Shown: positions 11,486 to 59,350 of the stretch, one piece after another
How positions within the stretch are numbered: the stretch's first letter is position 1
Layout: every line of letters starts with the position of its first letter
NCBI RefSeq assembly: GCF_964355755.1
Contig: NC_092677.1
Coordinates: 27,808,101-27,872,100 of the forward strand
Length of the DNA: 64,000 nt
From: Antedon mediterranea
Taxonomy: Eukaryota > Echinodermata > Crinoidea > Comatulida > Antedonidae
Direction of reading: 5' to 3'
Program-made: the position numbers and the translations under genes
The notes under the pieces: model-generated
Seen by the model: only the letters and a program-made list of their open reading frames with translations
What the model was told of the DNA's origin: nothing
Database searches by the model: none

Positions 11486-11739
11486 CTATATTATGCAGAA
11501 GTATTGGCAGTCGGAACCTATTAAACACAAGCCGCCATTCTGACAAGGTGAAGATTCGCACGGATTTGTATCTGAAATCAAACCAATCAAATTGATTCAT
11601 CCTTTGATCATAATACCAGCTGTGTCTTAACTTATTTAAAATCAAACTTAAAAATTGTAAATTGTATTTTAAAAACTAATTAAGTAGCAATGTTCCAGTT
11701 TTAATTAAAGTTTCGAATTTTTCTTTGTATACCTTGTTT

Positions 11740-11743
11740 TATG

Positions 11744-11785
<42 letters not shown>
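11740..11785. repeat. (CAAT)n microsatellite
   Basis: About eleven CAAT/AATC tetranucleotides in a row. This may be the simple 3' tail of an eroded retroelement on +. Confidence 0.85.
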
Positions 11786-11786
<1 letters not shown>

Positions 11787-12680: not shown

Positions 12681-13240
12681 GATTGGTTCGCACTAGCAAC
12701 GCAACGCAAGGAAGGAATATATTTTTGTAGATTTTTAATGTTGTGAATATTTTAGTGAATAATTGTGCAATGTTGCCACCTATACTAAAAGATAATAATA
12801 ATAATAATCAAATAAAGAACAGTGCAGATAGGTTTTACTTTAGTATATTATAATGCAAATTTTTCGTTTTTTTTTAAATAAAAGTGCAATTGTATTTTCC
12901 AAAATTGTGTATATATTTTAAGATTCTTAATATTTTAAATTTTAGTGAATAATTGTGAAATTTTGTAATTGTATATTCCGAATTTATTATTGTAGTTTTT
13001 ATAGATTTCATTTCAATATTTTTTATTGTAATACAAACGTTATTAGCTATGTGCTATTGTTTTTGTAATTTTATATATACCGTAATAAATAAAAAAAAAA
13101 AAAAAAAAAAAAAAAATAAAGTAACGCAACGATTTGACCCATCACACGATGGATTATTCGAACAGTGGTTTGTCATTGGTCAACTCGTTTGCTTTTCGAG
13201 TACGTCCTTGCGTTGCGTCTCTAGTGGGAACCACGCTTTA
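12681..13240. mobile_element. MITE (CCCACTAG / ACGCAACGCAA ends) split by a poly-A retro-insertion
   Basis: The left end TTGGTTCGCACTAGCAACGC and right end GCGTCTCTAGTGGGAACC are inverted copies. The internal GATGGATTATTCGAACAGTG is shared with other copies. About 400 bases of unrelated DNA ending in a roughly 28-base A-run (13089-13116) interrupts it, which looks like a later retrotransposed insertion on +. Confidence 0.6.
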
Positions 13241-13982
13241 CGTCACGCTTACGTCGTTGTGTTGGATTCAATTAATGGGAATCAAAGTGTGTTATTTTTA
13301 CTTACATGTTACACAACAAAAATATGATCGGCATTGGGCCTCTATCAAACACGTTTCCTTTTCTTTACAAGGTGAAGATTGGCAAGGGTCTGGGTTACAT
13401 GGATCCCCTAAAAAAGTAAATTTGTAATGTTAAAATATAAATATGGAAACAATTCAGTGTCCGTTAAATAAAACGGTTCAAAATATAAAATCATAAAAGA
13501 TTATAACATACAACTGACACTCATTGAAAAGTAATACCTTATTTAGGCCTACCTTTCTTTCCATCTTTTAGAAAATTTGGCGGCAACTATAACTACATAG
13601 GAACGATTCTCATATTTAGAATCAATCAATGTCATTCGCGCGCATGACCAGCATATGCCCCCCATAGTGCGAAATTTACTCTACTTTTAGTTTTAACCAT
13701 AATGTTTACCTTATTTCCAAATTTACCAATTACTTCACGGTTAGATCATGTTTGTAAATTTTATCCGAAAGCTGTTCCGGAACTAGCCAAACTGACTTTC
13801 GGGAAAGAAATGAGTTAAGAATAAGAAAGCACTCGCTGGCGGGCAATAAGATTTTTCATTTAATTTCTACATTTAAAACCGTCAAATATTATGAATAACT
13901 TGCACTAATGTCTCTAATGCTAGTCATTATCGAGTGAATACGCCAATGGCCGCATTTCAATCCGGCGTAAGCCACGCTAGCC

Positions 13983-38154: not shown

Positions 38155-38778
38155 TTAGGAAATCTGGTCGTTCATTACATGTTTTTTCTTAAATGTAATC
38201 ACCACAGCAACCAACATTCCAAGAAACATGGTTATTGATACGGCTAGAATAACTCGATCTGTGCCGATCCCAGATGAACTATGTATTCCGTCTCTCAAGC
38301 TTAAATCTACCATCGATACATCTAGTAAAAACGGATTTTATCAAAGTTATACGTTTAGACCACAATTAAAATCAGAACTATTAGGCCTATGTTTCACTTT
38401 TTCTTCTTAAATTAATTACATATATTTTTTATCTGGAAGACCAAACTTAAAACCTTGATTTAATGTGTCCTCACACAATTATATTTAATAATTTATCAAA
38501 TGTTCTGTATATTTTATTATATGATATTGTTTGAAACAAACTTGAACTTGGATATTAATCGCTGCTTAGTCCATTGTCGTCAATATCATCACGTCTTATA
38601 TTTTGTCACTATTGCATTGCACGCACAATTTCGCCTATATTGTCATACTTTTAAAGTTATCATCACTATCATATAAAACAACTTTACCACATGCTATCCT
38701 CATTAAGAATAGTTATCTTGTTTTAATTTAAAATAGCAAATTGTTACTTACCGTTAATTTCTCTTTTCTTTTTCCTAC
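38155..38778 (-). CDS. EGF gene exons 31-32: basic microexon, membrane segment and tail
   Basis: Exon 31 (38778-38752, 27 nt, phase 1-1) codes GRKKKREIN. Exon 32 (38321-38155) codes a Ser/Gly linker, the membrane segment [20 protein letters not shown] (about residues 1278-1298), then the basic stop-transfer FKKKH and the tail VMNDQIS, with TAA at 38155-38157. Both acceptors and the exon 31 donor are GT/AG. An alternative acceptor for exon 32 lies 15 bases further in, in the same phase. The basic stretch lies outside the membrane in a type I protein. Confidence 0.8.
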
Positions 38779-41700
38779 CTACAATAATTAAAGAACAACA
38801 ATAAATATGTTTGATTAATTAATTATAACATATTGCGCATACAATTGACATAGATTAAGATTTTTTTTTTTCTCTCTTTTGCTATGGATATAATATTATG
38901 TCACCATGATATTCCGAAATAAAAAGATGAATGAAATGAATGAAATGAAAATAATATCAATGAATAGAACTTTGTATGGGAGAAAGTGTTAAATTAAAGT
39001 TGCACTTACCAACTACATTAGAACAAGTGGTGCCTGCATACGGTGATGTACATTGACACTCAAAGGAAGTTGTAAACGAGCTGCAAAAGCCGCCATTTTC
39101 ACATGGATTACTGCTACATGGATCTGAAGCTGTAATGGTTATGTTTTAAAAGACTCTTGAAACCGAATTCAATCAATTTACATACATATATATTTTCAGT
39201 GGCATATGATGACGGGCGCATGCTAATATTATTTTCATCGACGTTTAAACGCGCGCGTGTCAAGTATGTTGACGCCATGGTGACAATGTGATGACAAAAA
39301 CGGTATATTGCACATCAAACGATATTAGGCCTAATAATAGATATGAGATTGATATGATTAATAGATTAATGTAATTAAAAAAGATTTTTTTTTCTCTGGT
39401 TGCTGCGTACCACAAAAATATATATTATATTTATACATAAACTACATTGAATATTTATAATATATAACATTTTCATTAATATGGTTTTATCTATTTTACT
39501 ATACAAACATAATTGTATTATGTTATTTTTCCATAACTATTTTATAGTACATATGAATAAATAATTGTTTAAATTAATTTTGTGATATTTCTTCTTATGC
39601 AGATATATTTATATTGTTATAAAGACTTACTAGTGTCAGCACAATGTTTTCCAATAAAACCAGCGGGACAGTCACAAAAGAAGTAGACGTTGATATCCAG
39701 ATCTGTCTGATAGACATTGTAACAAACGCCCCCATTGTCACACACACGCACGCTACACACGTCACCAATAGGATCATTCTCTAAAATTAAAGAACGTTCA
39801 AATGATATCAATATTCATGATTATTATTTAAATAAATTATTTTTTTCTTCTTCAACAATTTTAATTTTAGAAAGATATCAACTAATCCACTGGACTTGTT
39901 TAGTAAATAGCTAGCTACGTGGATTATTTTGATATTTTTATACAATTAATACTACCTGGATGAATGAGAATATTCATATTCTTCTTAAAAAATATGTTTC
40001 GGATAAAAATTGTATCAGACTTTAACACTTTGACTGCCAAACACGAAGATCTTCGTTTTTGGAAACACAACGTTTGACTGCCAAACACGAAGATCTTCGT
40101 TTTTCGCGTTTTTTTACGAAATCCGGTAGATAGGTTAATTATTGGTATATACTATAAATATGAACACTATATTCGGTCTGGACCGTCAATATTTTACAAT
40201 TTGAAAGTAACTAATCTGGTTACGAACGATTGTCAAAATGGTACCTGTCGAAATAACAAACACCGCGCATCACAGTAGCGCGTAGAGCGATGGCTTGGCG
40301 CATTGTGTATCGGTCGCGCGCTAGCTATGCCGCCGAAGCATTACAAAGGTTTTGTGGATTGACATGTTTGTTTGTTATCTGAATAAAAAATAATGGAGTC
40401 ATTTTCAATATGAAGTCTTTAATTTTATTATTGTATGTATACCCTAATTGTTTTGGTGTTTTACTGAAAGTGACCGAGTTTCACGAAACAAACTTGTTTT
40501 GAAATGGTATGGATATTATCATCAGTTTACTATCTAGGCTAGGCTAGTAGTACTAGGCTAGCCTAGGCCTAGGCCTAGTCGTAAAACGGTTCCGGACCAA
40601 CTTTAGGCCTGGTTAACTAGGCCTGGTGTCTTTACTATGTGGATTTTGGCGAAACATTGATATAAGATTTATGATTTATAAAATGTAATACATTTTTCGA
40701 TAGTGATAACTTATTTTTATAGGCCTATCGGTGCCGTGTAAGTAACTTTTTCGTTGTTTGTTGATCTCACCGGGCGATATTTTCATATTGTAATGTCTTG
40801 CACAAAATCGCGAATATCTCGACTTTCTTGCGCGAAACTACGAAAAACTCAAAAAGTGGGTTACTTTCATTTTACTATTACGATTTACATATTGTGATTT
40901 AAAAATCGTTCTTGATACCATTGTAAAGCTAAAATCTTTATGATTATTTTAGTCTAAATTAAATATAAATCAGATCACATAAATGGTTTCAATCAGCTTT
41001 AATATAAACATCGAATTGGGCTAAAAACGCTGGCGGTGGCAGTTTCTAACTTGAAAAACCTCTGGCAGTCAAAGTGTTAACGGTAGTAACGTGTCCATTG
41101 CCACTACTGTAGAAGGCCTAATTCCATATAACGAATTGTTGTCGCATAATGAGCAAAATTCAAATTTGTTTTTACTATGAATCGAAATATTATGGAATGG
41201 TAAATTAATAGCATCTTTTTAAATATTGACTTATTTCATGATATAATAATATTGTGATCGGACTATTGAATGAATATTTATGAGGTCATTATCAAGATCA
41301 ATTAAAAGATTCTAAGAATGCGCGCCAAAATAATCCGTTGGTGGTAGAACAGACGATATTCATCAATCAACAGTGTGTTGTATGGCGCGCCAAGCTGTCA
41401 TTTATTCGGAAATAAAGATATCTTAGTTGCGATATCTCTATTGCTTGAATAAATGACAGCTTGGCGCGCCATAGTGTTGTGTCAATTTTAAAGCGACTTG
41501 TTGTTGTATGCATACAAGGTATTCAGTCAAGAACACACTGATGTTGCCAACGCAATGTTCAATTTAAAATAGATCAAATGTTACACAAGTCTAGACATAA
41601 TTGCCTCAAGCCTTAGTTTTAGTTGTCTTTTGTAGGCCTACTGTGTGTACTCTTTGATTTTGATTGATTATGACACACTATGTGTGCCAAAATACCGGGC

Positions 41701-44700
41701 AAAATACTAAGCAGATTCGCTGTTTAGAACATATAACTTTTAGTCTTCTAATAAATTCAGGATTGATATTTTTCGATTTAATTTCTTCAATATTTATTCT
41801 TTTCATTTCTTTTGAATCGAACGATGTAACAAAATATAGTTGAAAAATTATTAGAGGCAAAAGCCCTATAATTTAGACGCATTAACAAGATGTTCGTAGC
41901 GCACGCGGATCGAGTTTCTTATTTCTGTAAAATCATGTAAGAACACACGGGAATAAGCATATTATAATTAAGTTCTACTGACTATGGACCAACAAAGTTC
42001 ATGTACTAATTTTACTGTAAAGCTTTGTCTACACTATCAAACTTTATGTGACACAAAAATGTGATGTGCCCATATAAAGGAAAGTCTTTAAACAGTGATT
42101 GGGTTCGCTTGTGACAATCCTGGCTTTTTGTTTCATTATATATTTTTCTGTTGTAATTGTAATGAGCCGATATTGAATAAATCAAAATCAAATATATGGA
42201 CATGATGATGTCATATCACTATCATAATTGGTCATATCACTACCATATTTGGGGATATCACTACTATATATGGTCAGATCACATTGTGTCAAACTAGATT
42301 GATAATGTACAGCTTTATGGAGCTTTTGTAGTGTATACGTACGTGTTGTCGACGCACAGTTGACTCCAGTGAAACCGGGAGGGCATATACAAGCGTACTG
42401 CATCTGGTAGAACCCTGAGTTACCCATACTACTCAGGTAGCTGTTACGACAAGTGGATTCGTTCTCGCATGGATCACTAGAACAAGCATTAGTCTCAGGG
42501 GATAACTCTAAAAGAAATAAAATATACGAGGTCTTCACGAGTGATCTAATAACCCCAGACATCATAACGCTACCCCAAAAAACTACCCTTTACCACTATA
42601 ACCTGTCGTACTTTCTCAAGAGCTTGTTGTTTTCGTACAAAGTTACAACAAATTCTAGACACCTTTTTTCACGCTTAATACAGACTTTCACTTATGGCTA
42701 AAAAAATAGAAAACGTGTAAACAACTACTATTCGGTGATGAACATGCTGGACATTTGTTTTGCTTACCATCACTTGCACAGTGTTTTTCTGTGTACCCTG
42801 GAGCACACAAACACACATAATGACCATCTTCCAGTGTCATGCAGGACCCTCCATTCATGCATGGGTCACTCAGGCAACTGTCGCTGTTTACGATTGTCGC
42901 TGGAGAGAAATTATTAATAATATCTAAATAAATTACTAAAATTATCATTAGTATTTCAATCATGACATAGTATACGTATACGTCATCCGATGACTCACTA
43001 TTCTGACGTACTTATACTGTACGTCAGAATTACACCAGCGGCGGAATCATTCAGGACTTGGTACGTTTAGACTAGAGTTACGTCGGATGGGGACATTATG
43101 GTAATTACGTCAACCGAGAACTACCTATCCTTACGCATTATGACGTCAACATAGAACTCCCTATTTTAACCTAGTACTGTTACGCACTATGACGTCAACA
43201 TAGAACTCCCTATTTTTACGTTGTACTGTTATGCACTATGACGTCAACATAGAACTCCCTATCTTAACGTAGTATTGTTTTGGACTATGACGTCAACATA
43301 GAACTCCCTATCTTAACGTAGTACTGTTACGCACTGTGACGTGAACATAGAACTCCCTATCTTAACGTAGTACTGTTATGAACTATGACGTCAACATAGA
43401 ACTCTCTATCTTAACGTAGTACTGTTATGGACTATGACGTCAACATAGAACTCCCTATCTTAACGTAGTACTGTTACGCACTGTGACGTCAACATAGAAC
43501 TCCCTATCTTAACGTAGTACTGTTATGCACTATGACGTCAACATAGAACTCCCTATCTTAACGTAGTACGGTTAGGGACTATGACGTCAACATAGAACTC
43601 CCTATCTTAACGTAGTACTGTTACGCAGTACGAAATTAGAGGACTCACTATACTTTGACGTTCGTTAGCGGAGGACTCATTATCATAATGTAGAAAAAAA
43701 AACCGTCTTACATTGTTCACAGTTTGTTCCAGTGAATCCAAATTGACAAACACATGAATACAGATTAGTTCCGCACGGGCCATTATTTTGGCATTCTCCT
43801 TGATTTTTACACGGATTTGTATCACATGGTGACAGTTTACCTTTAACAAATATATATATATATATATCTTTTAAACATATTCTTAGTGGCATATCTAGAA
43901 AGCAAATGGTATATTATAACCAGATCCATGCGGGGATCGTGGTTTCTATTCTTAACGAATTACGGGTTTTTTTGGACGAAAAGTAAAACGTTTAATTATT
44001 CACACTTTATCGTTAAAATCTCTCCCTAACATGAACAACATTTAAAATTCATGATTTAGAATTACCTAAAGATTCAATTTTAAGGTAGCCATGATTTGAG
44101 TAGAGACAGGTAATACAACAAATAAACAACGAACATAACGTAACATAAACGAAAGGTTTGATTTCAATTGTGATACAAGATATTTTAAGGCAGTTTTCCT
44201 ATTTATCAAATGCCTCAAATGCGTTATTTTAACTCGAAAGTTCAGTGGAATCATTCATAATTGGGATACTATTGTCAAAACATCGTTAAGGAAGTACAAA
44301 CGATGTATAATTATTTACATAAACACTTACGTAGTTCACATCGTGTTCCCTCATAACAATCCTGGCACTCGCATTCAAATGTCGTGCAATCAGTTTTGAT
44401 GCATGTGCCATCGTTGCCACAAGGATTACTAGAGCACGGGTTAGGGAACGCTGAAGCGTAAAAAAGGTAGGATAATTAGACGATAAAAGTTCATTCAAGA
44501 GGTAGCAAAATAAATTAAAAATAAATAAAAACTAAATAAACAGATACAATAATAATAAAAGAAAATAAATAAAAAAAATAAGTAAAAAATAAATGAACAA
44601 ATAAAAAAAAAATAAATAAAAAAAATACATAAAAAAGAAATAAACTATAGGAACCATCAATTCAAAAATTATATACAGATAATTGTTAGATGCCCAATAA

Positions 44701-47700
44701 AATTCTTCCCGTTGTTATGACGTTTACCATACGTGCGCGCAACGCACGAAATGTAACCAATCACAATTGATGAACATTATAGCTTTCTCGTGTGATTGGT
44801 CACATTAATTCGTACGTTGCGCGTAGCCTAGAGTGGGAAAATGTATTTTTTTTGGCATTTGCATCTGTCATCTTTTCAAAAACAAATCCAGCTTACCCAT
44901 TTCGTCACAAAATTGTCCATGAAAGCACGGAGGGCATGTACAGTTATATCGATAGCATGTGGAGAGGTCTGACATGTCTGGTTGACACGTGGCACCATTT
45001 ACACACAAATGATCACCAGTACTGCATGGATGAATTTCTGAGGGAAACGATAAACAGCTAATATAAATAATAATAAATAAAATAATAACAGGATTTTTAT
45101 AGCGCACATACCACTCAAGAGTGCTCAAGGCGCATTAAAAAAAATAAAACAAATCATACAAATGCCCGACAAATAAAATGCAATTTCTTTGGAGGGTCCC
45201 CATCCGTTCTCGTTCTGTCGCGGTCCCGGACCCCTACCTAGGTGACCAAACAAAGGAACAGGATACACATTTGCCTTGCCACAGACGACCGGGTGCTCAG
45301 AGACAACAACCAAGACAGAGGCACCCCAAAGATAATGCTGGTTAGGAAAAAGTATACTATACAATTCTAGAACTTTAAGAAACCTCATGATTTCCATATG
45401 CCTTAATGAATAAATGTGTTTTTAATAATTTTTTAAAAGTATCAACAGTTTTGCAAAATCTGATAGAGCTCGGTAGAGCATTCCATAGACGAGGAGCAGT
45501 AACGGTGAAAGCTCTGTCTCCCCATGAGTGGTGAGACTTAGGTTGATGTAGAAGCAGCGTATCACTAGAACGCAGATTCCGTCTGGGAACATACAGCCAA
45601 AGCATGTCAGAAATATATTCAGGAGCCATGCCATTAATAGACTTAAAAACAAAGAGTAATATTTTAAAAACAATGCGGTACCTAACAGGAAGCCAATGCA
45701 AAGTTTCCAAGGTATTTGATATGTGTGCATATCTTGGTAGTTTTTTAACAACTCGTGCCGCTGTATTTTGAATCAGCTGAAGCCTGTGGAGTTGTTTTTG
45801 TGGTAGCCCATATAGCAATGAGTTTCCCATATCCAGTCGTGAAGTGACAAAAGCATGAACAAGTTGTTTAGCTGCTGCCTCATTAATAAACTTTCGAATC
45901 CTTCGGATGTTTCGTAAGTGAAAAGACGACGTAGAAATAGTTTTTGAGATATGAGAAATCATAGTCATACCTGCATCCATTTCAACCCCTAGATTTCTAT
46001 CCTGCCTAGCCGGGTCTATTTGGGTTTCACCAATGTAAATAAAACTTGGTGGCAGTTTTTCCAACTGCAGCTTTGATCCAAAGAGAATATATTATATGGT
46101 GCTCGTAAAAATTGTGTGTAGGCCTAGAATGACCGATTTATTTATCGAGCATAAAAAGTTACTGGACGTTCTTTGGAGATTTCAACATTTGAACTTTTTT
46201 GCCAAAACTATTTTGTAGTATTCGATTCGAAGTCTTTTTGCTGTTTAGTGGTTGGTATACGTTGTTTCACTTCCTTTTCCGATCCCTGAAAAAGTTCCGA
46301 TCCCTGAAACAGTTCCTATTTATTGCTACCATTTAACTAAATGTAAATGTAAATTGGTTTTTTTTTTCATTTTTCCTGGACTGTCTCAAATAAATGTTAA
46401 TGTTAATTTTAAAAAAACTGTTGAGCTCATCAGAAAATTCTTTTGCTTTTTGTGGTTTTATCGCACAATTTAGTTTCTTTGAAAATTTTCTAAAAATAGT
46501 ATAACTTACTAGTCTCGCATAGATGACCTGTGACACACATAGGGCATTTGCATTCATAGGCGGCGCAATTACTTTGAGCACGCACACACGTTCCACCATT
46601 TTTACATGGATCATTTTGACATCCGATGTTGAAGTCTGTACAAAAATAAAAACAACAAATAAGTCACAGATTGAATCACGTCATCACACTTTGTTGTTTT
46701 TTTTCCTTTAAATGTTGTTATATTCATCTTATGTGTTTGTTTCTATCGATATTGATTTTTTTTGATTGATTGAGTATTCTTTATTTTTCACACAAAATTC
46801 AAAATATATATCAAAAGAAGAACAGATGCAAAGTGTGAAAAACATGATATCTACAAGCAAGCAAAGTTGTTGATCTGTGGCACCCTTAACTTAAAATATA
46901 AATTTACATATACATTACAAAATTGTTTTCAAGTAGTAGATTATAAAAATCATATTAGTAGATATAAAATCACAAAATAGCCGGTAGCCTACCTGTTTCA
47001 CAGAATTGTCCTGAGTAGCAGGGCGGACAAGTACATGTGTAGTCTGTACAAGAGTTATTTCCTGCGACACATGTGGCTCCGTTCAGACATAAATTAGCGG
47101 AACATTTACCAATTTCTAAAAGTTTTCAGATGAAAAACAAAATTGGAAAAACTTTTGAAAAAAATCCTTGAAATCAGCAGCTGACATAAACTACTTAAAA
47201 CATTCGGCGTTTTCCGAAATATAAAAAAAATAATTATTAAATCAAAGTCGAAATTACTTGATTACTCGAATATCTTATTTTTAAAAGTAGACATTATTCT
47301 TGAGTAAAACCGTTCTGCTCAACGGTTCGCTTCCAGTTAGGCTACTTGTAGTGAATTAGCGTGTACACTCATCACAGATGGATCCTGCCATCAAGGCAGA
47401 CTAACGTCCTTCCATCAAGGCAGACTAACGTCCTGCCATCAAGGCAGACTAACGTCCTGCCATCAAGGCAGACCAGGATCCTGCCATTAAGCCAGACTAA
47501 CGTCCTGCTATTAAGGCAGACTAACGTCCTGCCATCAAGGCAGACTAACGTCCTGCCATCAAGGCAGACTAACGTCCTGCCATCAAGGCAGACCAGGATC
47601 CTGCCATCAAGGCAGACTAACGTCCTGCCATCAAGGCAGACCAGGATCCTGCCATCAAGGCAGACTAACGTTCTGCCATCAAGGCAGACCAGGATCCTGC

Positions 47701-50700
47701 CATCAAGGCAGACTAACGTTCTGCCATCAAGGCAGACCAGGATCCTGCCATCAAGGCAGACCAGGATCCTGCCATCAAGGCAGACCAGGATCCTGCCATC
47801 AAGGCAGACTAACGTTCTGCCATCAAGGCAGACCAGGATCCTGCCATCAAGGCAGACCAGGATCCTGCCATCAAGGCAGACCATAATACTTGATGACTTC
47901 TTACCGGTTTGACAGAGTTGTCCAGTGAAACATCCAGTACATGAGCAACTGAAACTGCACGAGCCATTTTCGTATTCACAAGAAGCACCATTCAAACACT
48001 CAATACCTTGACACGGACTTATATCTGTTGATAACATTACACTTATTATGATTCAATTCATTTCATTCACATTTATTTAGTCATCGTTTTATATTATTAT
48101 ATTATATTGATTACCGCAGAAACTCTTATCCGATGGCAGCCAGCCACACACTACCCTTTCAACCAGTTAGTACACTACAGCTATCCATACGAGATGATTT
48201 TACGTCACATTAAACGAAGCCTGGACAACTGAGACACTTACTGTAGTAGGTTGTCTTTTACGTTGTCAATTATACAATACAATCTATTATTTTTTTAAAC
48301 CAACCAACAGCAAAAAGAAATTGGCCAATAACAGAAGGGTATTACTGGCTTAAATATAGCAATACTTGCCACACACACAACCTCATTACTTACACGTCTG
48401 GCATTGAGTTTCAGCATAGCAAGGTGGGCAGGTGCACGATGGGACGTCACATGGTGTCAGTCCAGGTACGCATGTGCCTCCGTTTTTACAGCTATCCACG
48501 TTACAATCAGATTGGGCTGAAACGACAATAAATAATGGATTCAGTATTTATTCTTCCAGTTCGTTTTTGATATTTTCAATATAATGTAACCTTGCCCACT
48601 ACCACTACCAGGCTGTAGAGTTTTATGTAACTTTGTCATTACAGAAGGAGAGAGGTTCCATCATGTGGACTAACATTACAGTGTAGTGTGATAAAACAAT
48701 CTGAACACAATGTAGACTGTTAAAACATAGCATAATAGGATACTACTTTACCTATCTCGCATAGTGATCCACTGTAGCAAGATTCACATAAGCAAACATA
48801 CTGATTACATGTTCCTTCAACTGGTTGACATGTCCCACCATTTTGACATTCATGGTTGTCACATCCTGTTACCACTTTAAAGAATGTAAAGGAGTTAAGC
48901 TTGGGTTCTCACTAGAAAAAACGCAACGAAACGTAACCGACGCAACGTAATAAAATACTCTTTAAAAAAAATCAATTTCGCATAACTTTTTGCGACGTAC
49001 ACAAAGCAGCAGACAATGGTGTTCGGTTCCCAATTTTGACGCGTAACGTTACGTTTTTACGGCACTATGCGTCGATACGTTGCGTCTACGTTCTTGCTTC
49101 CTAGTGGGAACCAAGCTTAAAGATAAACTAGAATGTATGCATAACCATTCTCTACATTAAACTTTCGTTATACTTTACTTGCATCATAAAGATAATAATT
49201 TAATATTTCCAATCATAAAGTTGGTATATTAAATGATGCTGCAATGATCTTGATTTTGATTAAACATAATTCAGAATTTAAAGATCATTAAGCGAGGAAT
49301 ATCTAATCCCCACTTACAACTTACATGTTTCACAATATCGTCCAGTATTGCAAGCTGGACATGCACATGTGTAAATGGAACAGGAGGCAGGAGTTGAAGT
49401 CTGCATACGGATACAAACTCCACCATTTTGGCACTGATGCGTTTGGCATGGGTCAGCAATAGCTGTTACAAACAATATTTTAGATATCATTAATTCAATT
49501 GATAGTTTAGTCAAAAGTCATTGGTCAAGAGAAGTCTTTTCACACACCAAAGTATCCGTTTGAGTTTCTACACGAAGTGTACGTTATTGCATAAGGTATA
49601 ATAAACATAACATTCAAAATCAATGTTTGGCAACACCACTATTTTGATGATTATAATGCCAATATTTGATCAAAGTGTCTTCTTAACCTCGTGGTCAACC
49701 TCAACTGTTTTCAAAGTGCTTCAACCCCCTTCAGCTGGTTAAAGTTTAAGGGAAGTTACCACAATCATTAAAATATATTGCCGCCTAGGCCTACCTATTT
49801 CACAACTTGACCCTTCATAGCATCCGTTACATTGGCAGAGGTACGATTGGCAGTTATCAGCTGTCAAACACAAGCCGCCATTCTGGCAAGGTGAAGATTG
49901 GCAAGGGTCTGTATCTGAAATCAAATAAATACACGGTGTATCTTTACAATCAAACTATAGCAAACATTCTGTAGGTTGAATGTGAGTTGAATGCTATCTA
50001 ACAATCTTTGTTTCCAGTGCGAATTTTGTTTTTCAATCTGTACAGGCATTGCCACGAATATCAGAATCTTGCGTAATTGATGTACAGTAGTGGTACTTCC
50101 AACCGCCAGTCTCTCTGTCAAAATTCATACAGTAAGAATTTATGCATTGCATATCACACACGCACACACAAACAAAAAGATCCTTCGATAGTATACTGAT
50201 GGTATGATTGTGGATTATTTACTTACAATTTTCACATTTTTCACCAGTGTAACAGCCCGTACAATCGCATGCATAATCTTGACAAGTTCCAACAAGATTG
50301 GTACAAACTCCTCCATTCATACATTCATGATTTGCACATGGATCGACCACTTCATTCAAAATATAATAACAAATCGCCCGAAACGATTGGTCATTGATTA
50401 AAAATAAAAGTTATGAAAGTATCAACTTAACTACAAATTTAAGTTTTTACTGAACGCAAAGAAAAGTTTTAACTCATTAACGTTTACAATTATAATTGAT
50501 TGTGCCAAAAGATCAACAGTAACAATAATAATGGAAAATAGTTTGGTATAGGAAATTGATTTAGTAATAATTTGTTCATTTAGTCACAAATTTCACATTT
50601 TTCACCAGTGTAACAGCCAGCACAAACGCATTGATAATCTTGACAAGTTCAAACAAGATTGGTACAAACTCCTCCATTCATACATTCGTTATTCGCACAT

Positions 50701-53700
50701 GGATCGACCACTTCATTCAAAATATAATAACAACAAATTGCCCGAAACGATTGGTTATTATTTAAAACTAAAACTACAAAGTTACTGAATGCAAAGAAAA
50801 GTTTCAACTCAAAAATTGAAAATTATACTTGATTGGTCATAAAAGAAAAAAGTACAACTAGAATTTAATTCGTCACTTTGACGAATTATAGGTGATCATT
50901 TTTATCATTTTAATGAAATAAATTTTTTTTAAACATGTACGTACGTTAACATACGATAGGAAAATGTTGATGTATGCCATCCTATTATACGCTTATAGTG
51001 CTGAGTTATGCCTATTATATGCCATATACAATGTACAGTATATACTGTATATCTATATACAGTGTAGCATAGGTGAAATTATGGGACACACATCAAGTTC
51101 AAATTTTTTGGTATGATGGAATTATCAAAATAAACTCGAAGATGACAATTTCGAAAGATAATGAATTGAGCAAATAGATATAAGGATTGGAAGAGAATTT
51201 GACACGTAGAAGCGCAATGCGCGCTCTTTGAAATTCTTATAACTTCGACTAAAGAAATTTAAAAACTACTTTTTAACTTCAACTGGCCATATGATAACAT
51301 CACAACATCCGATACGCTTAATTTTTATATGAATTCATATCTACATTTCATCAGCTTTCATAATAAATTATAATCTTCAAGGTCACCTTTAATTCTGAAG
51401 AGCTTTAAGATATTCAAATGTATGGTGTAGCTGAAATTACACGACCTAGGTTATTCAAGTTTTTACGCGTGATGAAGTAATCAAAATAAAAATGTTGACT
51501 ACTCATTAGAAAGATAATTAATTGAGCAAGCACATACTAAAATTTGTGCGAAAATCGGGCTCAAATAACGGAGATGCGCTCTATTGAATGTGATAACCCA
51601 CACAAAACGATAAAAATTCCTAATTTCTAAATTCAAGTGGCCATTTGATGACGTCATACCATTTTGTACGTCTAATGTGTATATACATTTGTATATACAA
51701 CTTATTGGCTTCCATAATAAGTTAAAAAAATTGGGGGTCACCTGCCATTCTGAATAGTTATATTCATTTTAAAAAGTCCTTATTTTTTACCATTTTTAGC
51801 ACTTTTGTACAATTAAAGTGCGTATTTTGTCATTTTTAACGTGCTCGTATAGCGTTATTTTAAGTCGGAATGGACTCAAAGTCGGAGAATGTACTAAGGA
51901 TTGTGAGTAGAATATGATGTATACATCAAATTTTATTTTTTACCCTTTTTAAAAATCGCGTGCGCAAAAATGTGTTTTTGCGCAGTAATTTTTTTAAACA
52001 CACAAATGGCCTATTTCATGCTCTAAATTGATAAAAACTAAATTTTGAGCTTTTTAAAATTTCAACGCGCGATTTCACGTGCATGACCTTGAAACGCCCG
52101 AGTTTTTATTTGCTAATATTTTTTACCTTGACCTCAAGTTTACGTGTAGTGATTTTCATTAATATGTGATAATGAATTATGGAGATATGATTGATAATGT
52201 GATTTCACAAAATGGCGTATACGTGACGTCACGGATGAGTGATCACGCTGAAAAGCTTATTAGGACTAAGTTAACGTATTTGAAAGACATTGTGAAATTT
52301 TGGTAATCATTAACATTAAACTTTTTGAGATATTTGTTACACAAAATCTGTACAGAGAGAAATAAATAATAAGAATAAGAATAAAGATTTCATACAATAA
52401 CAATAGGTGATCATTTTATTCTAAATGATCACCTAATAATAATGGAAACTTTTGTATAGGAAGTTCATTTAGTAATAATTTGTTCATTTACTCACAAATT
52501 TCACATTTGTCACCAGTGTAACAGTCAGGACAAACGCATTGATAATCTTGACAAGTTCCAGCTAGATTAAGATTGGTAGGCGTACAAACTCCTTCATTCA
52601 TACATGTATGATTTACACATGGATCGACCACTAAGTTAAAACATAATTAATAAGTACATACATTTTCCCAAAATGTTATATAATTATTATTATTACGAAT
52701 AAAAAGTTCGATTTTGACTGAACGCAAATAAAAATTTCAACTCAGTAAAATCAAAGACTGTGCCAAACTATCTCGCTTTAACAGCAATACTTTAAAAATG
52801 CATTATATAATGGAGAAAGCATTCGTATCTGAAATTGATTTAGTAATAATTTGTTTATTTACTTACACATTTCACATTTGTCACCAGTGTAACAGTCAGG
52901 ACAAACGCATTGATAATCTTGACAAGTTCCAGCTAGATTAAGATTGGTAGGCGTACAAACTCCTTCATTCATACATGTATGATTTACACATGGATCGACC
53001 ACTAAGTTAAAACATAATTAATAAGTACATACATTTTCCCAAAATGTTATATAATTATTATTATTACGAATAAAAAGTTCGATTTTGACTGAACGCAAAT
53101 AAAAATTTCAACTCAGTAAAATCAAAGACTGTGCCAAACTATCTCGCTTTAACAGCAATACTTTAAAAATGCATTATATAATGGAGAAAGCATTCGTATC
53201 TGAAATTGATTTAGTAATAATTTGTTTATTTACTTACACATTTCACATTTTTCACCAGTGTAACAGCCCTGACAATCGCATTCATAATCTTGACAAGTTC
53301 CAACTAGATTGGTACAAACTCCGTCATTCTTACAAGCATGATTTAAACATGGATCGACCACTAGTAGTAGAAAAATAACCAACTTATTACTGACATATTT
53401 ATGCTAGTAACAGCAGCATGTACTACTGTCAGGTCCAGGGAACAAATACTGAAAAATCTAGTTTTTTCGGATCGGAGTTTTTCATCAGAAAAAGCAGCTA
53501 AAAATATAAAATTCAGGTGTACATACCGTCTTCACAAAATGTTCCTTCGTAGCATTCAAGACATAAGCATTTGAACTCGGTACAACTATTCTCCGTGATT
53601 AAACACGTACCACCATTTAGGCATTCATTTCTTTCACATGGAGTTGGTATGGCTAATCAGAAATACATTTAATTCATTCACGACTTCAAATAAATTAATT

Positions 53701-56700
53701 AATTGCCTTTAATGAATTATTCACTCACAAGTTTACGACATTTAATAATAAAAAATGTTTTTTGCTTAATGAAGTTTTCGGTTTACTCATGAAAAAGCAA
53801 GATTCCTTCTCTAAAAGTGGCAGATGTTTGTATAATTACAAATTCAATTTTGATTTTGCTATAAAAAGAAGTAAATTGATGAGTTTCAACCATTATCAAG
53901 CTCATAGCCAGTGCTGGTGTGTTTAATAAACTCCTTTTTCTTTAGTTCTATTTTGAAACTAGAGAGGAAAGTGATGAAAATAGCCTTAACATAATGGCGA
54001 TGTCTGCGGAAAGTGTTTTGTTTAAAAAAGTGCCATTTGTGGAAAAGGTGTCTTTTTGTGGAAAAGTGCCATTTAGGGTAAAAATTGCCATTTAGGGTAA
54101 AAAGTGCCTTTTGTGAACAAAATCCCCTGTACAAATACTATACTATGCTACGGGATTGACCATGTATACTTACGTAGTTCGCACTTAATTCCAAGGAAGC
54201 AGGGAGGACAAGTACATAAATATTCTGTACAAGATCCAGTCATTGGTGTACATACGCCACCATTCATACATGCTTGGTCTATGCATGGACTAACAACTGC
54301 AATAGTAAATATTAAACTAATTTCTAACTAACTGTATCATTAAATTAAGTGAAAAAAGATTTGTTATACTGTATATTCAAAACAAGATTGATGTTCTTCC
54401 ATTTACAAAAAATTATTATTATTGGAAATTTTGTTCACCGTAGTTCTTCTCTCAATTTATGGGATTATTTTTTGCTGGTTGTTACTTTCCCATAGTCAAT
54501 TGTTTCAGAGATTGTGGATCTTGGGTGAAGATAAAGTGGTACGAATTGCATACATGCTCCAACTTAATTTTAATCATTAATATTTTTTTTACTTTAATGA
54601 AATAAATGCATACACTGTTCACAATTTGGTCCTGTATAACATGGGGTACAACTGCAGGTATAACGGTTACAGAGGATAGGATCATCAAAACACTGTCCGC
54701 CATTTTGACACAACATACCAGAAGTTGAACAAATAGATGTAATAACTGTAAGAAATAACAACATTATTTTCTTCATTCAGGCATTTTATAAAAAGCTATT
54801 GTAAATATTCACAAAATCATATATATGTTAGAAGGCTTAAGTGTTTTACAGAACGCGTCACTGTCAGGCACGACTATTTTTGTTTGTTGAAATATTGTTT
54901 TACCAATAAAATTTGAAATACACTACAATATACGTACTTGTGGCACAGTATTGACCGGTGGAACATTCAGGACAGACACAGGTATAGCCAGAGCAATCGG
55001 AAGCAGGTACGCATGCGCCACCATTTTGACACAGATGACCGTCACATGGGTCAAACTCTGAAAATAATCTAAATATGTATTTGTTTGTATTCTCTTGAAA
55101 TGTTTATGTTTTATCTGGCGGAACTAGCCTTAAAGCATTCTGGGCTTATTTACGTTTCTTCAGCCTATGTGCATTCTACTTTTTTAAACTTTATTTTTGT
55201 TATTATATATTATGATGTATCATGAGAATAAAATAAAATTGAAGTATTTTGGAATAGTTGTATACGTAAATGTTGAAGAATGCTAGTAGTAGTACATCGA
55301 GATTTACCTATTTCACAGTTGCTCCCTGTATAGCATGCTGGACAAACACAAGTTGAACTCGAACATGTGCCAGGAAGAGTTTGGCATATACCTCCATTCA
55401 CACAGCCAGTATTTGCGCAAACAGCAGGAGCTGTAATTCAAAATGAAAACCAACTTATGTGTGAAACAACACGTAAAATGTTTGTTTGTTTGTTTGTTTT
55501 ATCTTTATACTGGGTGACCTCTTCAGTCAAAGACTGATCTCCCAGAGGGCCCAGTTGGTGATGTACTAGTACACCGGGGTAACCCCCTACTCGTCTCGAA
55601 AGATGTACTAGGTTCTTTAAAGTGCACACGAGCAAGTTGTGTACACTGGACCTACGGTTTATAGTCCTTATCCGAGAAGACTCGTTCTACCACCAGAACC
55701 ATGGAGTGAGTGAGCCTCGAACCCCTGCCGATGTTATGGCTACGTGATTACGGTTCCACTGTCTTAACCGCTCGGCCACTCACTCACTACATAAAAAAAA
55801 TAAACATATAAAAATTAATTTAGTTTATAGCGGTAATTTTAACTATAAAATGTTTAAAAAAATTGCGTACGTAATTCACAGAAATCGCCTTGATAACAAC
55901 CTGAACAGATACAAGTTGCCACCGAGCACGTAACGTCATGGTAACACTGTCCACCATTTTGACACGGAGATGAGCTACAAGCCGGAGCTTTAAATATAAT
56001 AAGTAAAACGTGTGACGACACAAGACGTTTGGGCGCATGTATGTTTGAATACGCGCCAGTATACGCGCGTCAATTAATGATAGCGTATTGTACTTACGAG
56101 TGGCACAGAATTGACCAGTGAAACAATTTGGACAGACACATGTATATCCAGAACAATCTGAATCAGGTACGCATGCGCCGCCATTTTGACACTGATGGTT
56201 TTCACATGGTGGTATCATCTCTGAAATCAATTGATTCGTTTATATGTTATTTTTTTTTTTCATTTATGACAAAAAATACTTTCACAGAGACCTGGGCCGA
56301 ATTGCATACACTTGTGACCATATAACTTAATATTTATATACCAATAGGCCTACTATATAATGAATATGAATATAACAAATAATATTTTAAAATAAAATTT
56401 CACAATATCATCCATTGTAACAAACAGGAAACTGACAGATACTACTGAAAATAATTGAAATGAGGTGTGCGGCAGGGTGAGATTACTAACCTATTTCACA
56501 TCGAGATCCAGAAACACACGATGAAGTACATGAACAAATGAAACTATTAGACTGAGCCACACAAACACCATCACTGGAACAAGGATTTGATTCACATGGA
56601 TCCACAACTAAAATAATAAATATGTAATGGTAAAACATAAATATGGAAACAATTCAGTGTCCGTTCAATCACAACGGTTCAAAATAATAAAATCAGGTAC

Positions 56701-59350
56701 CATAAAACCTCGAAAGAAGCCCTCTGGCCCCACCTATTTATTTTTCCCCCTAAAGATGCCCATCTTTAAAGATTTAAGCCCCTCTCTTTAGTTTACAAAA
56801 TCGAGAACAGAAGCGCCACCAAGTTATGGTCTTTTTTATTTATTTATTTATTTATTTATTCGACTTCTCACTAACACAGTTAGTGAAGGATCTGGACCAA
56901 CTCTAAAACGGTCCAGTCCCAATTTGCAGTGGCTGTGTGTGACAGTGGCTGTGTTTGTGTGAACTAGTACACCGGGGTAGCCCCCTACTCGTCTCGAAAG
57001 ATGTACTAGGTTCTTTAAAGTGCGCATGAGCTACGTGTACACTGGACCTACGGTTTATAGTCCTTATCCAAGAAGACTCGTTCTACCACCAGAACCATGG
57101 AGCGAGTGAGCCTCGAACCCTTGCCGATGTTATGGCTACGTAATTACGGTTCCACTGTCTTAACCGCTCGGCCACTCACTCTTTAAAGTTGTTACGGTAT
57201 TAAGCTTATAGCACGTAAACAAACGGGCATTATATTTTAAATATGCATTTACTTTACAGGTGTGTGTGCAATCTAGGTATTTCGCGCGTAGACTGTGATA
57301 ATCGTGTCCTATTTTACGCATGTATCTTGTGGTATGCTTAATATTTTGACTAATTCAATTGAATATTTATAATGTCCACTACTATGTTTACCCATGTAGA
57401 ATAATTCTGTGATAATAGATATGAAATACAATACATTGGAACTCACCGAGTTGACATTGTGGACCGTTGAAACCAGAGGGACAAGCACAGAGATAATGGT
57501 TACCAGAAGGTGTGCACACGCCACCATTTAGACACGGGTTGTCCGTGCAACCTGAAAGATAATTCAATTCATATAAATTGTTATTCTCTTGGTTGTTAAG
57601 ACGTCCGGTGACCAGTGCAAAAACTTAGAACCTACTAAAATGTAGAATTCAGATTTAGTAGCCTACAGTCCCATACATGCGGTCTCTGTCTCCGCACATT
57701 GTTGTTGTATACTTCTTAAACTGCTGCTGAGCTCGCTCTATGCTTAATTTTCCACTGCAAATACTGTTATTACGTACGTCATAAGGTTATTCAAAGCGAA
57801 ACTTTACGAATGGTTGCATGCAATGATAGGAGTGCTGTGGACAATTACCAGACAAGCACAACATTTCAATCTGTTTCAATGTGGAAATACAAACAAATCG
57901 CTCGGTTTATTTATCAGAAAGAAAGTTTTTGAACGATTATGTATTGTAAATATAGTTTGCAATTCAGCCAGACAGCAGTGTTTTATTTTCTTTGTAATTT
58001 TGCTTGTTTCAATAAAAAAATCCATTATATATTGTCTTTAGTGATAAAAGTGAAAATTAATGAATATAGTAATTGTTTTCCGATTTTCTTCCAAGCGGCT
58101 TTCTAAATGTAGGCCTAATTATCTATCTCACTGCAGTACTTCTACGACTTTTATCAAACCCGGACGCCGCACCCGCGGACGCAACGCAACGACGTCGTTC
58201 GTAAGCACAACGCAAGTAATTTGACAAATCACAAGCGATGGATACAAACTGTCGTTTGTCATTAGTCAATTCGCTTCTTGCGTTGTGGGCTTACGTTATT
58301 GCGTTGTGTCACGGATGTAGGCCTACGCTAAACGAAAGTAATTTGATAACGTCATAATCTGTTGCTTGTGATTGGACAAAGTACTTGCGTTCCGTTCAAT
58401 GGTAAACTTTCACAACTTATATTTAGGTTTACTCAAATACCAGATTTCAACTCATCCTTAAAAATCAATTGATACATTCGTGTCTATTCATGGTGGTATT
58501 TTGTCAGCGATAAATAACTGTTTATTGTGAAAATATAAATCAGAAACGATATAGATATATAATAAATACATTTTCTATAAAGAAATATTGTCAACATTAT
58601 AAGTAAAGATTGATTCTCACTAGAGACGCAACGCAAGCGAATTGACAAGCGACTGTTGTTAGAATAATCCATTGCTTGTGATTTGTCAAATCACTTTGCG
58701 TTACGTCCTTGCGTTGCGTTTCTCGTGAAAACCAAGCTTAATAAAAGCTAATAATACATTTAAGTTTATATAAAATAACAAAATATTGATACTGGCTGAC
58801 CTGGTGGACATTCAAACATTATATCGCCAACTTGACAAAGGCAAATATACGACGAATCACTGGAAATTGAACATATTCCATTGGTGTTACATGGAGAACT
58901 TGCACACGGTGAAACAGATGCTGTAAAATAAATAAAATAATTAAAATAGACAATAAAACATTTACAGATGTGTCTAGTTGCTTGTCGTCTCACTAGGACA
59001 CAATGCAGCAAGGGTGTAGCGCAACGTAAGTGAGTTGACCAATCACAAGTGATGGATTATTCGTGCTGTCGCTTGTCATTTGTCAACACGCTTGCGCTGC
59101 GTTTACGTCTTTGCGTTACGTCTTAGTGGCAACCAAGCTTAAGAGTCGGCGCGTAAAACGTTGTGATAATCTGTCTGTTTTACGCGCGCATGCATGTTTG
59201 TTATCTTAATGTTTTGATCAATACAAAACAATACATGCATCCAAAGTCAAGTTACATTGCGTAGATTTTTGAATAAAGATTATTCTTACCTTGACCAATA
59301 ACGACATCAACAATCGCAAGAAAGACAACTACAGAAATTGACGACATCAT
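38155..59350 (-). CDS. Large multi-EGF type I membrane protein with eight-cysteine EGF modules
   Basis: Thirty-two deduced exons on -, total 3930 nt, 1309 codons plus stop. All 31 introns lie in phase 1. Order: signal peptide (exon 1), 29 EGF-like modules one per exon (exons 2-30), a 9-codon basic microexon (31), then a membrane segment and an 11-residue cytosolic tail (32). Modules 1-2 and 26-29 have the standard six cysteines, the 3rd and 25th have seven, and the 21 between have eight. EGF arrays act in extracellular binding or as spacers. No calcium-binding consensus, DSL, LamG or other domain was seen, so it is not an obvious Notch, Delta, fibropellin or crumbs. Exon 15 carries a stop codon, so the functional mRNA probably omits it (1268 aa). 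Exon coordinates are in the four part entries. Confidence 0.88.
39010..43840 (-). CDS. EGF gene part 4: membrane-proximal EGF modules (exons 26-30)
   Basis: Exons on -: 43840-43712 (seven Cys, [12 protein letters not shown]), 42899-42768 ([12 protein letters not shown]), 42507-42343 ([12 protein letters not shown], long central loop), 39780-39631 ([12 protein letters not shown]) and 39129-39010 ([12 protein letters not shown]). The last four have the standard six Cys, unlike the array N-terminal to them. The seven-Cys module sits at the switch point: it keeps the extra Cys before Cys4 but has Gly where the array has Cys. Confidence 0.88.
40022..41080. mobile_element. Non-autonomous piggyBac-like element
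   Basis: TTAA followed by CACTTTGACTGCCA at 40022, and the inverted TGGCAGTCAAAGTG then TTAA at 41063-41080. The TTAA target and terminal sequence fit piggyBac-type transposons. A roughly 44-base subterminal repeat (TTTGACTGCCAAACACGAAG) occurs twice at the left end. No transposase ORF is present. It lies in the EGF intron between exons 29 and 28. Confidence 0.7.
41382..41472. repeat. Perfect 26-bp-stem palindrome
   Basis: ATGGCGCGCCAAGCTGTCAT TTATTC at 41382-41407 is exactly inverted at 41447-41472. The spacer itself is an imperfect continuation (AAAGATATC / GATATCTCT). It would form a long hairpin. It lies in an EGF gene intron. Confidence 0.9.
42017..42318. mobile_element. MITE, same family as 5118-5278, with nested insert
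   Basis: The ends TAAAGCTTTGTCTACACTAT and GATAATGTACAGCTTTA are inverted. Internal CATATCACTACCATATTTGG repeats match the other copies. About 120 bases (about 42077-42196) ending GAATAAATCAAAATCAAATA interrupt the shared part. Confidence 0.7.
43088..43640. repeat. 49-bp minisatellite with a TGACGTCA core in most units
   Basis: About eleven copies of a 49-base unit (TATGACGTCAACATAGAACT, then CCCTATCTTAACGTAGTACT). Most units contain the palindrome TGACGTCA, the consensus for CREB/ATF factors. It lies in the EGF intron between exons 26 and 27, about 70 bases from exon 26. Confidence 0.93.
44331..50710 (-). CDS. EGF gene part 3: exons 15-25
   Basis: Exons on -: 50710-50588 (has a stop codon; separate entry), 50349-50227, 49914-49795, 49462-49325, 48874-48752, 48516-48394, 48024-47905, 47115-46993, 46635-46510, 45037-44897 and 44450-44331. 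All code eight-Cys modules, such as [14 protein letters not shown] with [12 protein letters not shown]. Divergence between them is much greater than within exons 12-16, so this is the older part of the array. Introns hold a 24-bp minisatellite (next to 47905), a LINE fragment and MITEs. Confidence 0.9.
45065..46085 (-). mobile_element. 5'-truncated LINE fragment (L2/CR1 type)
   Basis: An open frame of 229 codons (46064-45375) codes the C-terminal reverse-transcriptase region: [52 protein letters not shown]. The 3' UTR ends GCGCCTTGAGCACTC... and then (TTA)n at about 45065. It lies between EGF exons 23 and 24. The coding part is intact but lacks the catalytic box and endonuclease. Confidence 0.9.
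46740..46975 (-). repeat. Probable retroelement 3' end with (CAAT)n tail
   Basis: On - the stretch ends AAATAAAGAATACTCAATCA. The tail motif resembles those of LINE/SINE 3' ends elsewhere in the window. No coding remnant is visible. Confidence 0.4.
47385..47886. repeat. 24-bp minisatellite beside EGF exon 21
   Basis: About twenty-one copies of TGCCATCAAGGCAGACTAAC plus GTCC, alternating with a CAGGATCC variant. It lies in the intron immediately after exon 21 (ends at 47905). As the unit is a multiple of three, frames stay open on both strands. On - exon 21 would continue through it as an eight-residue repeat (LVCLDGRI) if the intron were retained. Confidence 0.95.
48897..49118. mobile_element. 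MITE, CCCACTAG/ACGCAACG family
   Basis: The inverted ends AAGCTTGGGTTCTCACTAG and CTAGTGGGAACCAAGCTT bracket ACGCAACG-rich sequence. It lies between EGF exons 18 and 19. Confidence 0.75.
50588..50710 (-). pseudogene. EGF gene exon 15: duplicated module with in-frame stop
   Basis: Nearly a copy of exon 16 (50349-50227), 361 bases away. In the CTNLVGTC segment the Gly codon is lost and TGA appears at 50649-50651. The donor reads GTGACT instead of the GTAAGT of its neighbours. The exon is 123 nt, phase 1-1, so skipping it keeps the frame. It is probably a dead or rarely used exon, although a sequencing error or a regulated nonsense exon is possible. Confidence 0.75.
50853..52437. mobile_element. 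Hairpin-ended non-autonomous transposon, copy 1 (Helentron/Helitron-like candidate)
   Basis: Starts TACAACTAGAATTTAATTCG followed by a 9-bp-stem hairpin (AATTCGTCA/TGACGAATT), and ends with a 12-bp-stem hairpin (AGGTGATCATTT/AAATGATCACCT) then AAT. GGTGATCATTTT occurs near both ends. No terminal inverted repeat, target duplication or ORF is clear. A second, shorter copy is at 60794-62200. It separates EGF exons 14 and 15. Confidence 0.7.
52496..53237. repeat. 371-bp tandem duplication of an EGF exon with its intron
   Basis: 52490-52860 and 52861-53231 are near identical, including exon 13/14 (135 nt each) and about 236 bases of intron. The shared period is 371 bases. The exon at 53360-53238 is an older relative. 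Confidence 0.93.
52496..56607 (-). CDS. EGF gene part 2: exons 4-14
   Basis: Exons on -: 56607-56491 (seven Cys), 56220-56098, 55987-55871, 55430-55308, 55057-54938, 54745-54614, 54296-54174, 53652-53527, 53360-53238, 53001-52867 and 52630-52496. From 56220 on, each has eight Cys in the order C-x(4-5)-C-x5-C-xn-C-x3-C-x-C-x2-C-x-x-G-x2-C, for example [13 protein letters not shown] then [15 protein letters not shown]. In standard EGF the seventh position is Gly (G-aromatic-x-G). Each exon is phase 1-1, so modules can be duplicated or skipped freely. The last two exons are essentially identical, including flanking intron. Confidence 0.9.
55479..55788 (-). mobile_element. SINE family A, full copy with tRNA-Ser/Leu-like head
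   Basis: On - the head reads GAGTGAGTGGCCGAGCGGTT (A box) ... GGGGTTCGAGGCTCACTC (B box), with a seven-base acceptor stem GAGTGAG/CTCACTC and a long variable arm, so it derives from a class II tRNA. The body (GGACTATAAACCGTAGGTCC, AGTACATCTTTCGAGACGAG) follows, with an (ACAA)n tail at about 55479-55499. It lies in the intron between EGF exons 6 and 7. Confidence 0.85.
56392..56440 (-). pseudogene. Remnant of an EGF exon
   Basis: On - a short stretch reads [10 protein letters not shown], a stop, then YCEI, matching the end of an eight-Cys module (C-x-C-x2-CYxGxxCE). No complete exon surrounds it. A dead module between exons 4 and 5. Confidence 0.5.
56832..57182 (-). mobile_element. SINE family A copy with a different 3' tail
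   Basis: The same tRNA-like head and central body as 55479-55788, but beyond TAGTACACCGGGGTAGCCCC the 3' part is unrelated (GGACCGTTTTAGAGTTGGTC on -) and ends in (AAAT)n. This suggests two subfamilies that swapped tails. It lies between EGF exons 3 and 4. Confidence 0.82.
57447..59350 (-). CDS. EGF gene part 1: signal peptide and first two EGF modules (exons 1-3)
   Basis: Exon 1, 59350-59290: [20 protein letters not shown], a typical signal peptide, ending in phase 1. Two adjacent Met codons offer alternative starts. Exon 2, 58920-58801: a six-Cys module with an unusual last loop ([12 protein letters not shown]). Exon 3, 57551-57447: a standard module, CLNGGVC...[12 protein letters not shown]. 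Introns 1 and 2 hold several MITEs. Confidence 0.88.
58160..58400. mobile_element. Diverged MITE pair, ACGCAACG family
   Basis: GACGCAACGCAACGACGTCG, ATCACAAGCGATGGATACAA, GTCATTAGTCAATTCGCTTC and TTGCGTTGTGTCACGG follow the family order. A second partial piece (CTTGTGATTGGACAAAGTAC) adjoins. It lies in EGF intron 2. Confidence 0.55.
58611..58741. mobile_element. MITE, CCCACTAG/ACGCAACG family
   Basis: TTCTCACTAGAGACGCAACG on the left and CGTTGCGTTTCTCGTGAAAA with CCAAGCTTA on the right are inverted. The centre has ATCCATTGCTTGTGATTTGT. About 130 bases, in EGF intron 2. Confidence 0.75.
58988..59142. mobile_element. MITE, CCCACTAG/ACGCAACG family
   Basis: GTCTCACTAGGACACAATGC at the left and CGTCTTAGTGGCAACCAAGC at the right, with ACCAATCACAAGTGATGGAT and GTCATTTGTCAACACGCTTG inside. 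It lies in EGF intron 1, near exon 1. Confidence 0.72.

Follow-up and report, generated by a model that had tools for sequence, protein, structure and literature searches.

A crinoid gene with two extra cysteines in each module of an EGF array, predicted to join neighbouring modules

Few rods are as common on the surfaces of animal cells and in their matrices as tandem arrays of epidermal growth factor (EGF) modules. The locus described here raises the question of where two additional cysteines, present in nearly every module of one such array, form their bonds. It lies in a stretch of 64,000 nucleotides from the crinoid Antedon mediterranea (NCBI RefSeq assembly GCF_964355755.1, contig NC_092677.1, positions 27,808,101 to 27,872,100), which is called the window below. 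A preliminary description, made from the sequence of the window alone, reported about 21 eight-cysteine EGF modules at 44331-56220 and suggested a fourth disulphide inside each module. The distribution of the extra cysteines along the array points instead to bonds between modules. Very probably the second extra cysteine of one module is joined to the first extra cysteine of the next, so that the modules are stapled head to tail within one chain of a membrane protein.

The array belongs to a gene on the minus strand (59350-38155). As read from the sequence, it has 31 exons and encodes 1268 amino acids in an unbroken frame, with every intron in phase 1. The product consists of a signal peptide, 28 EGF modules each encoded by one phase-1 exon, a basic stretch from a micro-exon, a single membrane-spanning segment, and a short tail. 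Exons 5-24 occupy exactly 56220..44331 (-) and encode 20 intact eight-cysteine modules. The array and its span were thus correctly recognized in the preliminary description, but the twenty-first module is a decayed copy, which has TGA where the sister exons have GGA for glycine and is followed by a poor donor. Since this copy is in phase 1-1, the reading frame is preserved when it is skipped.

The modules have the pattern C1-x4/6-C2-x5-C3-...-Ca-x4-C4-x-C5-x2-Cb-x2-G-x2-C6, in which Ca is the extra cysteine before C4 and Cb the extra cysteine after C5. The Ca-x4-C4 spacing is found in 154 of the 160 eight-cysteine modules genome-wide, so the three residues first given before C4 should be four. 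The genome-wide counts (160 modules, 146 of them distinct) cover the parts of the genome that were read, and with this number of modules chance is excluded. Phenylalanine, tyrosine, or tryptophan directly follows Cb in 153 of the 160. In alignment A2, which holds 19 distinct eight-cysteine modules of the window gene, the eight cysteines and an asparagine after C2 are invariant, and the glycine of xxGxxC is nearly always kept.

The eight-cysteine modules belong to the EGF superfamily. In a Pfam scan of the 19 distinct modules, PF00008 was matched by 14 and PF07974 by 12 (E<=1; best 1e-4), and a profile search of the PDB with the modules matched Notch1 and Delta-like chains with E values down to 2e-24. 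Both extra cysteines are absent from the five best PDB matches, which were compared residue by residue. The Pfam scan of the window modules gave no laminin-EGF or integrin-EGF family at E<=1, and the gap between C1 and C2 is four to six residues, different from the laminin-type C1-x-C2. The original view that the spacing is neither laminin-type nor integrin-type is therefore supported. Glutamate or glutamine directly before C1 is found in none of the 20 intact window modules, and 13 of them have proline there; the modules thus lack the calcium-binding EGF (cbEGF) consensus D-x-D/N-E/Q. A ninth cysteine at the end of the module ('CExC', for example CEMC) was considered and rejected, as it comes from raw translation through the splice donor T|GT.

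The arrangement of the extra cysteines is best seen when each module is written as (Ca,Cb), with 1 for present and 0 for absent. The window gene then reads (0,0)(0,0)(0,1), twenty (1,1), (1,0), and four (0,0), and Cb is found in modules 4-24 and Ca in modules 5-25, numbered by exon. This offset is expected if Cb of module n bonds Ca of module n+1. With a Cb-only module opening the array and a Ca-only module closing it, every extra cysteine would have a partner, and the window protein would contain 21 staples. The two cysteines had been described as gained together, and they are indeed coupled, but exon 4 has only the second (with C5-x3 spacing) and exon 25 only the first (with x6 before C4). 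These two modules decide between pairing within modules and pairing from module to module. A fourth disulphide inside the module would leave the edge half-modules of the window gene and its paralogues with an odd cysteine, and their order would be unexplained. The reverse pairing, Ca(n)-Cb(n+1), was rejected because it fails at the array edges.

The same register is found at other loci. The genome comprises 354 Mb in 18 contigs, and the contig labels C1, C2, C6, C7, and C8 are used for loci. It was searched with one eight-cysteine module as query, after which the array edges were read and every module was labelled. Similar exons occur at no fewer than seven further loci, on C1, C2, and C8, and all the readable array edges among them open with (0,1) and close with (1,0), save those of one array. 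At C8:15.42-15.44M the paralogue likewise carries a micro-exon, here encoding GRRRRDVE, as well as a membrane exon that encodes a short tail. Two weaker matches, EGF genes on C6 and C7, have six-cysteine modules only. Closing modules with C4-x2-C5 and Ca-x3-C4 spacings are found at C2:15144082 and 15144852, in putatively stapled blocks of three modules. At C2:13.68-13.80M, (1,1) exons are numerous and nearly identical, apparently because of recent amplification, and no capping module was found in the stretches read.

Agreement between neighbours was counted over the window gene and the paralogues together. Before counting, a few misparsed modules were corrected by hand, and one module (C8:10536949) with an extra cysteine near C3, away from the Ca position, was taken as unrelated. 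The state of Cb in module n equals that of Ca in module n+1 at 203 of 206 adjacent junctions, and at 30 of the 33 informative ones, which are those other than (1,1)(1,1) or (0,0)(0,0). When module order was shuffled within segments, the mean was 153 concordant junctions and the maximum 171 (20000 trials). When half-modules were flipped at random, the maximum was 201, again in 20000 trials. With the extra cysteines masked, none of the half-modules has its closest relative in a same-type half-module at a different locus. Because the nearest relatives of the half-modules are not same-type caps elsewhere, the capping modules probably arose repeatedly.

The linkers between modules also differ between the two kinds of junction. 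A bond spanning the joint would call for a linker of fixed length. When the splice sites with the best scores are used, the linker from C6 to C1 is six residues long at 136 of the 153 junctions that would carry a staple, compared with 15 of 35 unstapled ones (Fisher p ~2e-8). Linkers of five to seven residues are found at 151 of 153 and 22 of 35, respectively (p ~3e-9). The Notch1 linkers that have been studied are six residues long, with one exception, and rigid Notch linkers have six residues (PMC4826273).

The positions of the extra cysteines in the fold are compatible with a bond across the joint. An AlphaFold2 model of a single module (predicted local distance difference test score 85) has strands at residues 14-17 and 25-28. 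Ca, at residue 22, is between these strands in the loop of the major hairpin, and Cb, at residue 32, is past the second strand in the C5-C6 loop. The model fits Notch1 EGF12 with a root-mean-square deviation of 1.0 A over 36 residues (Z 5.9), indicating that the extra cysteines need no new fold. The structure prediction suggested earlier for one module thus gives a canonical EGF fold, but it puts the two cysteines in separate loops, which argues against a fourth bond between them. In pairs of EGF modules, an aromatic residue at C5+4 packs onto the turn of the major beta-hairpin of the next module (PMC4826273). In Notch EGF11-12 this packing consists of a tyrosine on an isoleucine-glycine pair, and a rod of three modules is about 100 A long (PMC3415683). 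Cb, at C5+3, adjoins the position of the packing aromatic. Ca, five residues before C4, presumably matches the isoleucine of the Notch packing pair, by sequence position. Since each lies at or beside a contact of Notch EGF pairs, Ca by analogy is expected to point to the module before it and Cb to the module after it.

Some observations weigh against module-to-module stapling or reduce the weight of the counts. Many of the modules are recent duplicates, and the junction counts are not independent. The junction figures overstate independence, and the independent evidence comes from the edges of the arrays and from the blocks of three modules. All three discordant junctions are in one locus, C1:13.83-13.86M. 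The array there (C1:13.836-13.860M) starts with (0,0) then (1,1) at 13835370/13836164, and no missed exon was seen in this gap. It ends with (1,1) then (0,0) at 13860348/13860686, with a 12-residue linker. In a block of three modules just upstream of the main array, the module at C1:13833991 has Cb, and a linker cysteine five residues before C1 replaces Ca; this is a possible alternative staple position. One Ca and one Cb of this locus would remain without a partner.

The one array with (1,1) at both edges would be natural if Ca and Cb were bonded to each other, making the modules a new eight-cysteine EGF class with an unpaired cysteine in the edge modules. The two occur together in 160 of about 180 modules having any extra cysteine, which also fits such a bond. 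However, it would leave about 20 half-modules with an odd cysteine in the loci read, and it gives no reason why Cb-only modules open arrays and Ca-only modules close them, an order unreached in 20000 random flips. The hairpin loop and the C5-C6 loop, in which Ca and Cb are modelled, face opposite neighbours in tandem EGFs (PMC4826273, PMC3415683). A bond within the module is therefore unlikely. A different possibility keeps the offset pairing and places it between chains, with Cb(n) bonded to Ca(n+1) of another molecule in laddered dimers or bundles. The sequence parity is the same for both, and EGF modules of separate chains are disulphide-linked in some other surface proteins, such as the teneurins. 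This arrangement appears quite improbable from the near-constant six-residue linker at stapled junctions and from the match of the extra cysteines to packing positions within a chain. The extra cysteines could also be surface thiols or intermolecular cross-linkers like those of scallop Sbp9, with an edge pattern inherited from one ancestral array. Reactive-thiol EGF arrays have been reported in a marine adhesive (PMC13348336). Free thiols would need no parity between neighbours, though, and the edge modules of different loci are not mutual nearest relatives, while internal (0,1)(1,0) blocks recur; this explanation is barely probable.

Stapling from module to module suggests the following structure for the protein. 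Cb, three residues after C5 of module n, would bond Ca of module n+1, which lies in the turn of its major hairpin. The staple would sit where EGF pairs of the Notch and fibrillin type pack the C5+4 aromatic on the next hairpin turn, and the disulphide would replace calcium as the stiffener of the joint. The product would be a rigid, calcium-independent, and reduction-sensitive rod at the cell surface, anchored in the membrane as a type I protein. Because a basic micro-exon precedes the membrane exon, the rod may be released by furin-type cleavage at RKKKR. Such a rod might serve as a surface coat, in adhesion, or in defence.

Table 1. Exons of the EGF-array gene, fragments of a second array in the window, and module codes at paralogous loci
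Feature	Position	Strand	Details
Exon 1, signal peptide	59290..59350	-	ATG, hydrophobic core, GTAAGA donor, phase 1
Exon 2, EGF module	58801..58920	-	6 Cys
Exon 3, EGF module	57447..57551	-	6 Cys
Exon 4, N-terminal capping EGF module	56491..56607	-	7 Cys, Cb only (0,1)
Exon 5, first eight-Cys EGF module	56098..56220	-	(1,1)
Exon 6, eight-Cys EGF module	55871..55987	-	
Exon 7, eight-Cys EGF module	55308..55430	-	
Exon 8, eight-Cys EGF module	54938..55057	-	
Exon 9, eight-Cys EGF module	54614..54745	-	
Exon 10, eight-Cys EGF module	54174..54296	-	
Exon 11, eight-Cys EGF module	53527..53652	-	
Exon 12, eight-Cys EGF module	53238..53360	-	
Exon 13, eight-Cys EGF module	52867..53001	-	recent tandem duplicate of exon 14
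Exon 14, eight-Cys EGF module	52496..52630	-	recent tandem duplicate of exon 13
Decayed eight-Cys exon copy	50588..50710	-	in-frame TGA for Gly, donor GTGACT
Exon 15, eight-Cys EGF module	50227..50349	-	
Exon 16, eight-Cys EGF module	49795..49914	-	
Exon 17, eight-Cys EGF module	49325..49462	-	
Exon 18, eight-Cys EGF module	48752..48874	-	
Exon 19, eight-Cys EGF module	48394..48516	-	
Exon 20, eight-Cys EGF module	47905..48024	-	Ca-x3-C4
Exon 21, eight-Cys EGF module	46993..47115	-	
Exon 22, eight-Cys EGF module	46510..46635	-	
Exon 23, eight-Cys EGF module	44897..45037	-	
Exon 24, last eight-Cys EGF module	44331..44450	-	
Exon 25, C-terminal capping EGF module	43712..43840	-	7 Cys, Ca only (1,0)
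Exon 26, EGF module	42768..42899	-	6 Cys
Exon 27, EGF module	42343..42507	-	6 Cys
Exon 28, EGF module	39631..39780	-	6 Cys
Exon 29, EGF module	39010..39129	-	6 Cys
Exon 30, micro-exon (27 nt)	38752..38778	-	GRKKKREIN, furin-like site RKKKR
Exon 31, transmembrane segment	38155..38321	-	short cytoplasmic tail, stop codon
Second array, intact exon	12020-12208	-	(1,1)
Second array, degenerate fragment	13301-13429	-	
Second array, truncated fragment	11489-11596	-	
Paralogous locus	C1:16.42-16.466M		opens (0,0)(0,1)(1,1); ends (1,1)(1,0)(0,1)(1,0)(0,0)
Paralogous locus	C8:15.42-15.44M		opens (0,1); ends (1,1)(1,0)(0,0)
Paralogous locus	C8:15.34-15.38M		opens (0,0)(0,1)(1,1); ends (1,1)(1,0)(0,0)
Paralogous locus	C8:10.54-10.58M		opens (0,0)(0,1)(1,1); ends (1,1)(1,0)(0,0)
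Paralogous locus	C8:1.1966M		opens (0,1)(1,1)
Paralogous locus	C2:15.144-15.147M		(1,0)(0,1)(1,1)(1,0)(0,1)(1,1)(1,0); 6/6 junctions fit; blocks (0,1)(1,1)(1,0)

The window contains several other features. Exons 13 and 14 originated in a recent 371-bp tandem duplication at 52460-53310 (97%). There are minisatellites at 47383-47881 (24 bp), 29621-30438 (20 bp), and 43131-43627 (49 bp). The 24-bp minisatellite falls within the intron that separates exons 20 and 21, and several of its reading frames are open. A eukaryotic-type carbonic anhydrase gene (PF00194) is represented by exons at 19438-21264 (-), the last of which ends in a hydrophobic tail. Beyond this gene there is a second eight-cysteine array, in fragments, at 11489-13429 (-). 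An amino-acid permease exon (PF13520) is present at 7484-8185 (-). A LINE-type retroelement at 22287-26661 (+) has a GDSL-like open reading frame followed by an endonuclease/reverse transcriptase frame (PF14529, PF00078). Two shorter open reading frames, 31106-31881 and 45378-46091, resemble remnants of retroelements and have no Pfam match.

If the staples are real, they provide a design rule for stiff rods assembled from exchangeable exons, in which the gain or loss of a (1,1) exon leaves no unpaired cysteine. Counts of 'eight-cysteine EGF' modules can also hide bonds from module to module. No description of stapled arrays or of eight-cysteine EGF arrays of this kind was found in the open-licence literature, which is weak evidence of novelty. 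It is reasonably likely that staples in a fixed register along a whole array, with repeatedly evolved caps, in a multi-locus surface family of one animal lineage, constitute an undescribed architecture.

Several known systems resemble parts of this arrangement. Laminin-type EGF modules likewise have eight cysteines and form tandem rods, but their cysteines pair as four disulphides within the module. In laminin EGF modules C1 and C2 are spaced C-x-C and a further loop is present at the C-terminal end, whereas the window modules have x4-x6 between C1 and C2. Marine adhesive proteins such as mussel foot protein 2, sea star Sfp1, and scallop Sbp9 share the EGF repeats. Rods of EGF modules rigidified by disulphides have been proposed for Sbp9, which has six conserved cysteines per module, and a regular Ca/Cb register is not part of that account (PMC13348336). 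The EGF modules of integrins also have extra cysteines, but their eight cysteines are paired within the module (1-5, 2-4, 3-6, 7-8). In integrin beta, according to a recent review, a single disulphide links the domains EGF1 and EGF2 (PMC12383024), and this is the nearest precedent found for a disulphide between EGF modules. It joins the last cysteine of EGF1 to the first of EGF2 at a single hinge, while the predicted staple is repeated and uses other cysteines. The tandem EGFs of Notch, Delta, and fibrillin (EGF, cbEGF; PF00008 and relatives) share the module fold, the six-residue linkers, and the aromatic after C5+3. In the crinoid protein, however, two extra cysteines are found at or beside the positions of non-covalent packing between domains, and the calcium-binding consensus is absent. 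Calcium at the joints is the usual account of stiffness in EGF arrays. The joints of the crinoid rod would be covalent rather than calcium-dependent, and disulphide-locked joints, if confirmed, would be a second solution.

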